From Prototheca cutis (Eukaryota; Chlorophyta; Trebouxiophyceae; Chlorellales; Chlorellaceae), in contig BCIH01000014.1 in assembly GCA_002897115.2 (NCBI GenBank), positions 183,707 through 247,706 of the forward strand: DNA of 64,000 nt. Direction: 5' to 3'. The translations under genes and the position numbers were made by a program. Shown here piece by piece: positions 2,092 to 51,525 of the stretch (positions within the stretch are counted from its first letter, which is position 1; each line of letters starts with the position of its first letter). The notes beneath the pieces are model-generated. The model had not been told where the DNA came from. It did no database searches and saw nothing but the letters and a program-made list of their open reading frames with translations.

Positions 2092-4030
2092 TCAATTGCC
2101 GCGGGAGAAGAGTCCACGGCCCTTTTTGCGGCCGGTGCCCGAGGTAGAATCGGGTGTGGAGTAGGACTCGTTCCGCATGAGCTCGTCCCCTGCATCCACG
2201 CCTGATGGCGGCTCGGCCTGCGGCACGGGGCTAGCCGTCGAGTACATGGCACTGTATGTCGTCGGCATCGGCGTCGCGGGCGCAGCGCCCGAGCCGCCCG
2301 CGCCACCCGCTGGAGAGGCCGTGGCTGAGCGGGAGGAGAACAGGCCCCGGCCCCGGCGGCTGCCGCCTGAGGCCAGCGCGTCGGGCCCGTGGCTGAGCTG
2401 GCGCCCGAAACTGCTGCCGGTGGCCGGCGTCGCCATCGTGGCGGCCGCCTGCGACGATGGCGCTGTCGACGGCGTGCGTGCCGCAGCGCCCATGCCATAG
2501 GGCGTTGGCGTCGAGGCCGCCGCGCCCGCCGGTGGCGGGGGCACCTGCCCGCTAGCTTCCACCTGCCGCGCCGCACGTGCACGATCCAGTGCGTCCCGAG
2601 TGACGCTGGTCTTGGATCCGGCACCTCCGCCACCCTGGCGCTGGCTGTTCACTGCGGGCATTGTTCATCAAGGAACGGGGGTGATGAGTTTGGCTCAAAG
2701 GAGGTGGTTGCTCTCAAAGCTCAGCTCATTTTCTTTCGAGCCCCCGACGGCCCTCTCCAACATGTAAATTCGACCGACTCACCAAACTCGCGCTCCAGCC
2801 GCCACCGGTGAGTCACCATCTCTGCCTTGGTCAGCTCCTTCTTGTGGTTCTTGCGACGCTTGTAGTACATGAACCCTGCCGGGTGGCGCCGGTTGGGTGG
2901 GTGGACGTTCCAATGGACATGATACATAGTAGTGCCACGCCCGTTCACCAGCCTGCTACCCTGGAGACATCTGCAACAAAAGCCAAGAGCCCCCCCCCCA
3001 CCCCATCACCCCCGAGGTAACAGAAAAGCCCTACCAAGAGCGAGGATGATGATCAGACCGACGGCGCCTCCAATGGCGCCGCCGATGGCCGCCTTGGCTG
3101 AGCTGCTCAGACCGCCGCTGTCATCGTCGTTGTCTGGGCTCGGGGAGGGGCTGACCCCGGAATCCGGGCTGGGTGAGGGGGAGGGGCTGCCAGAGTCAGG
3201 AGGTGGGGAGGTCGCAGGTGTGCCGGGAGGGGGTGGCGATGCATTTCGCAGGTAGCAGATGCAGCACAGGTTGTCGTTGTCTGCAAGATTTTTGGGGGGA
3301 ACGGGGGAGGTGTTTGAGATTGAAGTGCTCGGAGAGGGTGGGAATCAAAGGGGGAGACCGGTTTGCATGTGTGGAATAGCAATGGCCCTGACAAACAGCA
3401 TTGCTCTGTTGCACGTCTCCGACAACCCCACCTGGTTTCCAACAATCAGTTCAAGGCCCACAAATTCAGTTATGGTGCATGTGGTGAGCCTGTGGAAGAC
3501 CCTGTAGTTCCTCCCGCCCCAACAAGCCACACGGGCATGGATCGCCATATGCCTTGCACCCAAAGCACGCTGGACATGCCTGCAACTCAAGCGTCTATCA
3601 ACCCCCCCACCCTCAACTTCCCACTGTCACATACTCACACTCATATGTCGTTGGGTCCACCGTGTTGGAGGTACCCGCGACCTTGGCATCGCATGTCGAG
3701 ATGCAATCCGACGTGGAAGACACCACGAAGTGGGTGCTCCTGCGGCACACCCCAGGGGGAGGGGGTGCGGCAGCATCGTCGGAAGGCGGCGGGCTCGAGT
3801 CCTGCAGGGTCAATGTGGGACGAGGGGCGCCGGCTATCGGCAGCTTCAGTCGGAGAACAATCCCTTACGTGGCGTACATGCACAGAATGGCGTGCGGCGC
3901 GGTCCGAGCACCGCGCGGATTCCCTTACCTGGAGCAGGGACCGCCGGGAGACGATCCTGGGTGCTGCGTGGGTCCCAACCATGCATGCCATGACCAGGAC
4001 CGCCAAACAAACTTTTCGACGGGCACCCAT
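2092..4030 (-). CDS. Single-pass membrane protein with signal peptide, function unknown
   Basis: Five exons in phase: 3929-4030, 3639-3801, 3035-3280, 2783-2875, 2092-2651 (387 residues). A signal peptide (basic MGARRK start, hydrophobic core, cut near THAAP) leads a lumenal or extracellular region with six or more Cys and long Pro/Ser stretches. One membrane helix follows, rich in Gly and Ala and ending in IILALG, then a basic YYKRRK stop-transfer signal. The roughly 200-residue cytoplasmic tail is Ala/Pro/Ser-rich and carries two copies of a basic RGRGLFS motif, the second at the very C-terminus. This is the architecture of a surface receptor or cell-wall sensor, but I recognise no family and assign no role. 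Exon 1 starts at the Met just before the signal sequence. Confidence 0.72.
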
Positions 4031-4577: not shown

Positions 4578-5797
4578 TCAGCTCTGAGCATTCTGTGCAC
4601 AGCGCAGCCTCAGGATGGCCATGCCCGCTGGACACGACAGTCCATCGGGGAGCGGGAGCGCCTCCCACGAGGGCTGCAGCTCCGAGGGCCCCGTGCCGCC
4701 GCCACCTGTCAACATTTCACTGCTGAGCAGCCACACCTCTCCACCATCGACTCGGGCGAGATCTTTGCAGGCAGACAGCATGGTTCCCAGCGTCTCCTCA
4801 GTCCCCACCGCCGCCGCCACAAAGACGGTATCCATGCCCTCGGCAAACACCCGTCGCACACTGGACAGCTGTCCCGCCAGCTCAGCGCCGGGGCACAGGG
4901 TGTGCAGGAGCAGGCGCTCGTACATCACGCGATCACCGTTGTTTGTCGCATTGCACCGCAACAAGTCTAGCGCATCGGCGTCCGTCGCCGCCGCCACGGC
5001 ATGCCTGCGACATGTGTGGCTTGTGCGTTGCATGACACACAGAAATCATGGCGCTAAGTTTGGAGTTCGGTGAGCATGCGACTCTGCTGTTTTCCCCCTA
5101 TTTTTGAGGGCACAGAACGACTGCTGTACTTGCTTTCCCCAGGTGGTGTCCCGGGCCATTATAGGACCCTTCAACTCCCTCATCCCCCCTTCTGGATTGC
5201 GCTCAAGGTCCTCACCTGGCCCACTTGAGTGCCAAGGCGGCAGCGAGCCCGCCGCCTGCAGGGCTCCACTCCAGCACCCGCTTCCAGGCCAACCCACCGG
5301 CCCGGCCGATCCAGTCGACCAGCCTTGCCAGCGCCACCGGCAATTGCTCTGTTTGGAGGGTCGACTTTTGACCTGGGACCTGCCAGGTCAGACGGCCAAA
5401 GGCAACCGTCTCCATGCTTTGCAGTTCACCAGCTGGCATCCCAAAGTCGCCTGCCGGGGTCGTTGCAGGGTTGGGGCACGGAGGTACCGGGTCGTGAGTG
5501 CATGTATCACCCGTCAATGCCTCTCCACCTTCCCGCTCTGCAGCCTGCTCCTCGGCACTCAGGAGTCGAAACTCTCCCTGGATGAACAGCCTGTCCATGC
5601 AGAGCTCCAGTTTCTGGTTGGTCACCTTTCTTGCCTGCAGGCTCAATGTGACGCACTCAAAGCCCGCAGCCTCAAACAGGGTACGCAAGTTTTCCTGCAT
5701 GACAGGTGGTGTGTGGGGGCTTGGAAGTCGTGGTGCCTTGGTGGACAACGGAATGGAAGCCTACGGTCGTCGACCTCACAACCCTTACCCAGGAAAC

Positions 5798-49849: not shown

Positions 49850-50428
49850 GGGCTGTGTCAAGACTGTGATGTCGCAGTGCGTACATGGGTTGCCAGTGAG
49901 TGCCAGGTGACCAGGTTACGGAACCCACAACCCATTCAGCGTCACACCTCGGCGAGCGCCAACTCCCGCGGCGTGGCCAATGTCGTCTGCACCATTCTTC
50001 CTCACCAGTGCGCCCCTTTCACACGTCAAGATATGTCGAGGAAAGTAGGCAAGCAAATGGGAAGCGCAAGGCAACTTTTCATCCGTGTGACGTGGATTGG
50101 CATTCCACTGCCAGAATATGCTGAAAATTGCTCGAACAATCGGCGGGGCGACAGTCCCTTCCAGCCCTTCCGGTGCACCACCCGCGCAGCACTTTTTTGC
50201 ACGACTGCACGATGATATTTATTCCGCACCAAAAATCCAGTCTAAGGACAGGGTGGGGCCAGTACGGAGCGCGCTCGTGGGCAGCCACCCTTCCACGTTC
50301 GGGGGCTGCGCAGTTGTGGGGGACGGGGCCACCAAGCCGCGCGCGCAGGCCCTTGAAGCGCCTGTTAACTCCAGAAATCAAGATAATGAAATGATTTCGG
50401 GGATTGACGATACAAATGGGAGTTGTAA
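49850..50428. other. Spacer between acireductone dioxygenase and the nuclease remnant
   Basis: 579 bases. Holds the dioxygenase promoter. I looked for the N-terminal half of the nuclease here and found none in frame; a GIDDT motif at about 50400 in another frame is discussed under rejected items. Confidence 0.45.
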
Positions 50429-51206
50429 CTCTGCGATTATGCCGGTTTCTCGTTCGGCGCCCTGCTCGACGTCACCTGCAGCTACAAATGGAGGAAGGAC
50501 GCGTTTGATGTGTACATGATGAGGTANATGGCCATGGACAAATCCATCNAGGANGTCATTGCCTGCACAGGGCACCAGCCCNGCAGGNTTGTCGTGTTCA
50601 TGGGCAATGCCAGCTTCAGGCACAACTCACCCGGCCATCCTCCGAGCCTGGGGTGGCGCCGCTGGGCCAAGCGCATGCGGGAGGCGCACGGACTGCTGGT
50701 GATAGAGGTCGACGAGTTCCGAACGTCGCAGGCGCCCCGGGGTTGTGCATGTGTGGGGTTGTCTTGTGGCTGCAGGGTTGGATGGGTGCGGGTAGTGGGC
50801 CGGGCGAGCAGATACAGAGGGGGGTTGGAGCAGTGCACGTGCGCATACGTGCGCAGACACACAATGTCCACGGGCTGCTGGTCACGCCGATCCCAAACGC
50901 GCAACGCCGCATATCTGTTCGGCGTGCGAGGCGCATGTGCGCCTGGGTGGATGCAGCACCGCCCGGAACAAGTACGCNNTCCTCAAATGCGACNGNTGTG
51001 GCGTGGTGTGGAACCGCGACGTCAACGCCGCGCGGAGCATCCGCCACCTGGGGGAGAGATGGGTCCTGACCGGCGACAGGCCGCCGCCTTTTGATCGCAA
51101 AACCGAGCTCGCCCCCCTTGCATGTCCCCCTCCCAGGCGCTCCACCTTGTATGATTTGATCACCAAGATGCTCCGCTGGCTCTGGCCTGCGGAACAGCAC
51201 CATTGA
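50429..51206 (+). pseudogene. C-terminal part of a Fanzor/TnpB (OrfB)-type RNA-guided nuclease, probably degenerate
   Basis: A frame opens after a stop at 50426-50428 and can be joined as 50429-50741 plus 50857-51206. It reads SYKWRKDAFDVYMMR, then VVFMGNASF (50591), SLGWRRWAKRMREAHGLL, VIEVDEFRTSQ, a zinc ribbon CSAC (50916-50927) with CDxC (50988-50999), and VVWNRDVNAARSIRHL. The last Asp of WNRD (51018-51020) is the RuvC-III residue of OrfB/TnpB nucleases. In the RuvC-II strand the usual Glu is replaced (MGN), while a Glu stands in DEFRTS, the rearranged layout described for eukaryotic Fanzor proteins. No RuvC-I half, start or intact N-terminus was found, and eight or more ambiguous bases fall in the frame. 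Relic of a mobile element or a partly mis-assembled intact copy. Confidence 0.72.
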
Positions 51207-51525
51207 ACACGTGCTGTGAGGCCAGTTTGTTTCTGGGTAACCTTCGCAGATCTCTTGTGAGGTGCGCCCCAGTTTGTCTGGAATCGTACCCCACCCGAAC
51301 AATCGTGAACCCCCCCTGGCGATTCGCCCCGAGATCGCTCGGTACCCCTGCTGATCCCTTGCATCCAACTGAGCTACCGCCCCGTTTCATATGTCATAAT
51401 ATTTTTTTTTACATCGATGTTGTGGTGATCGAGCATGGTTAGATAGGCCAGGTAGGGGCCCGGTACCAGGGCAACGAGCTCCGGAGCTTTACCTCGGGCC
51501 CTGGCAAACCGGCTAAGCGCAACCC
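51207..51525. other. Structured spacer downstream of the nuclease remnant
   Basis: Contains two adjacent perfect hairpins, 51318-51328 (GGCGA-T-TCGCC) and 51329-51342 (CCGAG-ATCG-CTCGG). On the minus strand it carries a Pol III A-box match (51365-51376) and near B-box (51280-51290). See findings. The promoter of the next gene must also lie here. Confidence 0.5.
51280..51383 (-). other. tRNA-like element with A box and near-B box
   Basis: Minus strand begins GGGGCGG then TAGCTCAGTTGG, a perfect eukaryotic A box and tRNA D-arm start. About 75 bases on is GGTACGATTCC, one mismatch from the B-box consensus. The acceptor stem does not close and the T stem pairs poorly, so it is not a working tRNA by eye; a tRNA pseudogene or tRNA-derived repeat is more likely. 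Confidence 0.35.

Follow-up and report, generated by a model that had tools for sequence, protein, structure and literature searches.

A very probable internally deleted member of a Fanzor-encoding transposon family in the green alga Prototheca cutis

What is the 3' part of a Fanzor-type nuclease gene doing, without its first catalytic motif, in the small genome of a green alga? The window analysed here, a 64,000-nucleotide stretch of Prototheca cutis contig BCIH01000014.1, holds such a fragment. A sequence-only reading had taken it for the 3' half of a Fanzor-type gene, split by a probable intron, and had offered two reasons why the RuvC-I half was not visible: that the locus is a relic or that the copy was damaged by ambiguous bases.

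The gene fragment and the element around it

Re-reading the translations confirmed, in two frames of the plus strand and at the place noted, the series VVFMGNASFRHNSPGHP, VDEFRTSQ, a CxxC...CxxC zinc ribbon and VVWNRDVNAARSI. A Pfam search with the open reading frame at 50796-51206 returned PF07282 (Cas12f1-like TNB) at 27.3 bits, above the cut-off of 26.3 (E 4e-6); the reading frame with VVFMGN and DEFRTSQ found no counterpart in Pfam with an E of 1 or less. Chance does not explain the PF07282 match: a scan of the genome (19.9 Mb, 23 contigs) with this profile, in which 150 of 181 candidates were scored, gave 97 hits with an E of 0.001 or less. The ribbon reads CSAC...CDXC, where X is a single unknown residue caused by an N, and the RuvC-III aspartate is found in WNRDVNAARS. 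The assignment to the 3' part of a Fanzor-type gene thus holds, but the feature is larger than that, an element spanning 50142-51295. Very probably it is a non-autonomous copy with an internal deletion, belonging to a family of DNA transposons in which the fuller members code for a Fanzor, probably a Fanzor1. The identity of the gene fragment, the sister copies, their common deletion junction and the flanking repeat are shown at the level of the DNA sequence. The parts of the element are as follows.

50142..51295, plus strand: entire insertion of 1,154 bp, derived by a type A internal deletion from a Fanzor element some 5.8-6.0 kb long (from homology extents to other copies, ends and repeat)
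50133..50142, no strand: 5' copy of direct repeat CGAACAATCG (10 bp), the target site duplication; its length is 9 bp if 50142 is counted as the first base of the element
51296..51305, no strand: 3' copy of this direct repeat, an exact match to the 5' copy
50142..50463, plus strand: element 5' end, corresponding to about 243-563 of long copy C6a (from comparison with C6a)
50453..50463, plus strand: deletion junction, where the borders of the lost segment of about 4.6 kb are partly similar over about 11 bp (from comparison with long copies)
50453..50731, plus strand: remaining Fanzor exon part, from ALLDVTCSYKW to VDEFRTSQ (displaced RuvC-II Glu), without RuvC-I (from translation)
50732..50912, plus strand: putative intron of 181 nt, with GC as donor and, in place of AG, AT as acceptor (from comparison with the 17 copies read)
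50913..51206, plus strand: last Fanzor exon, with zinc ribbon, WNRDVNAARS (RuvC-III Asp), the C-terminus ...WLWPAEQHH and stop (from translation and PF07282)
51207..51295, plus strand: 3' untranslated element end including a terminal hairpin, and a candidate for the end of a guide-RNA scaffold (from 3'-end alignment and folding)

In essence, the window copy consists of the first ~320 bp of the long copies joined to their last ~945 bp, the latter reduced to 843 bp because the window intron is shorter. The RuvC-I motif is missing because ~4.6 kb was lost by internal deletion; its DPG signature, deleted here, is present in the fuller copies of the family. The exon at 50453..50731 has no in-frame ATG before VYMMR, and no in-frame start lies ahead of the motif block.

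The other reason offered, an assembly or base-calling fault concealing a copy that is in truth full-length, draws on the quality of the sequence. The window contains 81 N bases, 66 of them in one run at 17-82; nine of the other 15 fall inside the element (50527-50996), as if reads from near-identical copies had been mixed. Since so large a share of these scattered Ns lies in the element, the assembly evidently struggles with the family, and one long copy, C5, carries a 100-N gap and a duplicated block. However, the same junction recurs at eight further places in the genome, seven times exactly and once with one mismatch, and the exact direct repeat at both ends is what would be expected of a unit inserted as such. 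These two observations rule out the ambiguous bases as the cause of the missing half and make a concealed full-length copy very improbable. Of the two earlier suggestions, the relic has therefore stood, through the internal deletion and the lost splice acceptor, and we take the window copy to be one.

Sister copies and the protein that they encode

Regions aimed at 40 of the 97 profile matches were fetched in addition to the window's own, together with five extensions; one of these regions (L013) holds a second match. Among the first 20 loci fetched, all three motifs were found in 15, two in L024 and only the last in L022 and L028, while L025 and L026 showed none by the patterns used. The 40 loci were sorted against C6a, a long copy built from the overlapping loci L033 and L014, into 10 fuller copies, seven of deletion type A, seven of type B, 12 of a separate short family and four others. 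The second match in L013 is an eighth type B copy, and two of the four others, L039 and L040, hold genes more remotely related to that of the family. One locus counted as fuller (L020) starts only at position 5063, downstream of the RuvC-I stretch. The search for sister copies that had been recommended earlier thus yielded fuller members, the two clean ones being C6a at 5.8 kb and C8 at 6.0 kb; C5 and C6b hold N gaps. In L014, a long G-rich expansion occupies ~3735-3830, within the putative intron of one long copy. The separate short family (L025, L026 and L042-L051) comprises elements of ~1.5 kb that also carry the 3' end of a Fanzor gene.

Genome-wide pattern searches, allowing up to three mismatches and run with a control, extended this census. 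The type A junction occurs at nine places including the window (control 0), the type B junction at 65 places spread over 16 of the 23 contigs (control 0) and the element's 3' terminus at 71 (control 1). RuvC-I codons gave seven matches at six loci (control 0); a variant copy, L021, was missed by the pattern and found by separate reading. On these junction and RuvC-I counts, shortened copies are about tenfold commoner than those bearing RuvC-I.

The fuller copies supply what the window copy has lost. GIDPGRK, the RuvC-I motif, is found in seven of the 10 that were read, and the remaining three lack that stretch in the assembly; between RuvC-I and VDEFRTSQ, the frame is free of stops over 181 residues in all six copies read. 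The same copies also carry the zinc ribbon, the RuvC-III Asp and, in the form E-x6-C, the glutamate in its displaced position. The probable intron proposed earlier corresponds to an insert of 170-279 bp between VDEFRTSQ and ICSAC in 17 of 17 readable family copies (C8, not readable by the insert pattern, is outside the 17), with the refinement that it would be of the rare GC-AG type: the insert begins with GC throughout and ends in CAG in 15 copies and in CAT in two, the window copy and L024. The acceptor is broken in two of the eight type A copies. In L039, an insert at the same position has GT-AG ends. After the putative splice, all 17 copies would read E-FRTSQI-C, placing the glutamate six residues before the first cysteine, as is typical of Fanzors (PMC10711439). 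Two gene lineages of the same genome that are further removed, with 53% and 56% identity to the family, likewise keep D, E, four Cys and D. For the fuller copies, dN/dS is 0.38 from REC to RuvC-II, 0.21 in the exon kept by the window copy and 0.47 in the last exon; by these substitution ratios, the protein of the fuller copies is shown to be under purifying selection.

Regulators derived from TnpB exist in prokaryotes, and the short copies might likewise make a nuclease-dead C-terminal Fanzor fragment that acts as a DNA-binding regulator of the host. In the type A copies (n=8), the kept exon is 96% identical compared with 86% for the 5' end, and dN/dS is 0.33 in the kept exon and 0.55 in the last exon, as a retained function might produce. 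Yet the fuller copies show a like contrast between the two regions (97% versus 87%), so that it can have been inherited from them, and the substitutions confined to one type A copy each are near neutral, with five synonymous and 11 non-synonymous in the exon and 13 and 23 in the last exon. Together with the broken acceptors and the want of an in-frame start in the window copy, these private changes leave the truncated protein unsupported as a regulator, and such a role is given very little credence here.

Kinship of the nuclease

A family profile built from five readings was compared with solved structures. The first match was the TnpB-like protein L79 of mimivirus (E 1.6e-8), followed by TnpB, Cas12f and similar chains; Fanzor1 chains ranked lower (Parasitella 0.03, Spizellomyces 0.54). 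A separate PDB search with a poly-G-bearing frame gave low-complexity matches only and was dropped. A protein search with the part from RuvC-I to the C-terminus found the proteins P0001 and P0002, whereas the part from REC to RuvC-II found nothing at E up to 0.01; P0001, used as a query, found itself and P0003. P0002, a protein of 624 residues from public data, aligns collinearly with the family profile from RuvC-I to RuvC-III (probability 99.4, E 1.8e-21) and in turn matches the Fanzor1 proteins of Guillardia theta (E 1.1e-6) and Parasitella (0.0022). The Guillardia theta protein (PDB 9cer) is thereby linked to the family by sequence through P0002, but it is not among the chains matched directly by the family profile at E up to 10. 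On the strength of the P0002 alignment and of the match between P0002 and Fanzor1, the family nuclease can be called a Fanzor with confidence and, with probability, a Fanzor1 rather than a Fanzor2, the direct structure search ranking L79 and TnpB above the Fanzor1 chains. The Fanzor origin proposed from the letters alone accordingly gains support from the profile match, the sister copies and this comparison with another Fanzor-like protein.

That TnpB and Cas12f chains outscore Fanzor1 chains over the zinc-ribbon part would also suit an ordinary prokaryotic-type TnpB, arrived by contamination or by recent transfer from bacteria. Set against such an origin are the putative introns, which share one position across the family and L039, the DPG form of RuvC-I with E-x6-C, the dispersal of the type B junctions across contigs and the collinearity with P0002 through all three RuvC motifs, which together render it most unlikely. 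According to the available text of one study, Fanzors can be told from typical TnpBs by two features, DPG at RuvC-I and the displacement of the glutamate (PMC10711439).

A close parallel comes from Auxenochlorella UTEX 250-A, in which the commonest repeat is described, in the available part of the source, as an uncharacterised Fanzor-encoding element (PMC12633428). The two are alike in encoding a Fanzor and in residing in a small, GC-rich, streamlined trebouxiophyte genome; their kinship would follow from this description, not from sequences (PMC12633428). This source, in the portion available, was the only one found to treat Prototheca and Fanzor together. Because the Auxenochlorella element has already been reported there, the present family belongs to a known kind (PMC12633428); Fanzor elements in such algae were thus known, and what is added here is the anatomy of one family. 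In this one small genome, a few copies encode the nuclease and about tenfold more are shortened, which offers a natural setting for asking whether Fanzor aids the persistence of its transposon and whether shortened copies share the nuclease. Auxenochlorella, a relative of Prototheca, is described in the same available text as modifiable by homologous recombination, which would make the question testable there (PMC12633428).

Ends, mobility and a possible guide RNA

Before insertion, the window site would have been a single copy of CGAACAATC without the element. Direct repeats of at least 9 bp flank three of 13 family copies, compared with one of 156 mismatched pairs; in the second short family, they flank five of 12 copies, compared with none of 132. 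They are absent from the other 10 and seven copies, respectively, and the flank windows were picked after the element ends had been inspected. In the four longest copies, any flanking repeat is 5 bp or shorter. Judged by eye, the two element ends resemble each other only over short, degenerate stretches. Since both ends are retained in the window copy, it could be moved in trans by the products of other copies.

No transposase was recognised among 10 open reading frames from one long copy. The MULE transposase profile PF10551 matched nowhere in the genome (its controls were positive in three of 14), and the hAT profile PF05699 was equally silent in its controls, so that its lack of a match is uninformative. 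Target duplications of ~9 bp fit membership of the MULEs, but the family is not filed among them because neither the long copy nor the genome yielded a match to a MULE transposase. In the available text of an earlier survey, the fungal Fanzor1 elements ROr-4, PBl-3 and MCi-4 have MuDR-like ends (PMC3627910). They resemble the present family in having 9-bp target duplications and a Fanzor on board without a transposase of their own, but their inverted ends are like those of confirmed MuDR elements, in contrast to the short, degenerate end similarity and the lack of a MULE transposase match here (PMC3627910). The same text describes the Chlamydomonas Fanzor1 elements CRe-1, 2 and 3, which share with the present family a green-algal host, many truncated or internally deleted copies, a 3' end that is nearly always kept and target repeats of variable length (PMC3627910). 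They have Helitron2-like ends and insert after TTTT (PMC3627910), which the flanks inspected here do not show.

Exchange between copies was also considered. Type A copies form no clade in the trees of either end, some SNP blocks are common to short and fuller copies, and distances between copies at one end correlate with those at the other (r 0.52, permutation 0.001). The two halves of one end are uncorrelated (r 0.01 and 0.16; four of six comparisons computable), and gene conversion is not established by this test.

Other Fanzors have been shown to cut DNA under the direction of RNA. By analogy, an intact Fanzor of this family would bind RNA transcribed from the element's 3' end into the flank; the flanking DNA in that RNA would be the guide, and cutting of matching DNA could favour retention of the element. 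The window copy makes no such nuclease. For other Fanzors, expressed there in laboratory yeast, the available text of one report describes an RNA from the transposon end that directs the nuclease and whose guide portion is flanking sequence (PMC10432273).

Both deletion types keep the element's 3' region, and this region was aligned for 22 of the 26 family copies (in L018 and L028 the element stops ~40 bp earlier; L034 and L035 were missed by the pattern). Each of the 12 pairs of the terminal hairpin is kept in 20 to 22 of the 22 copies, with no compensatory change among them, and one pair is broken in the window copy. The whole predicted 3' structure has 19 pairs, two of which show one compensatory change, both outside the terminal hairpin. 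Two lengths of the window copy's 3' end were set against 200 shuffles: the last 64 nt fold better than 198 of them (z -2.38), the last 102 nt better than only 183 (z -1.53). Rfam gave nothing at gathering scores in the window, and L012, L014, L033 and L018 had no match with an E of 0.1 or less; one sub-threshold match near the element's 3' end was disregarded. Because most deletion copies keep the 3' end that would encode a guide-RNA scaffold, they could conceivably be guide donors, with the nuclease of the few intact copies serving in trans ~70 natural guides across the genome, each corresponding to the sequence that flanks its own copy. This reading is an unlikely one, and retention of the 3' end may equally serve transposition. 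Three type B copies (L022, L052 and L053) have an extra G+C-rich, hairpin-like stretch in their 3' untranslated ends that is absent from most other copies; L010 has a shortened form of it.

In a weak test, with controls positive only in a cyanobacterium, LHC and PsaD had no match in the genome, which may suit a colourless alga such as Prototheca. Just past the element, 70-88 bp from its 3' end, positions 51365-51383 on the minus strand resemble the 5' half of a tRNA, with an A-box-like stretch GGGGCGGTAGCTCAGTTGG; ARAGORN called no tRNA in the window, this stretch included. Permuted tRNA genes are reported for Auxenochlorella in the available part of the source (PMC12633428). Three neighbouring open reading frames, all on the minus strand, have recognisable products: 47283-48230 matches Rad51, 52838-53603 matches ribosomal protein L19, and 48809-49237 matches acireductone dioxygenase, the element lying on the 5' side of that gene.
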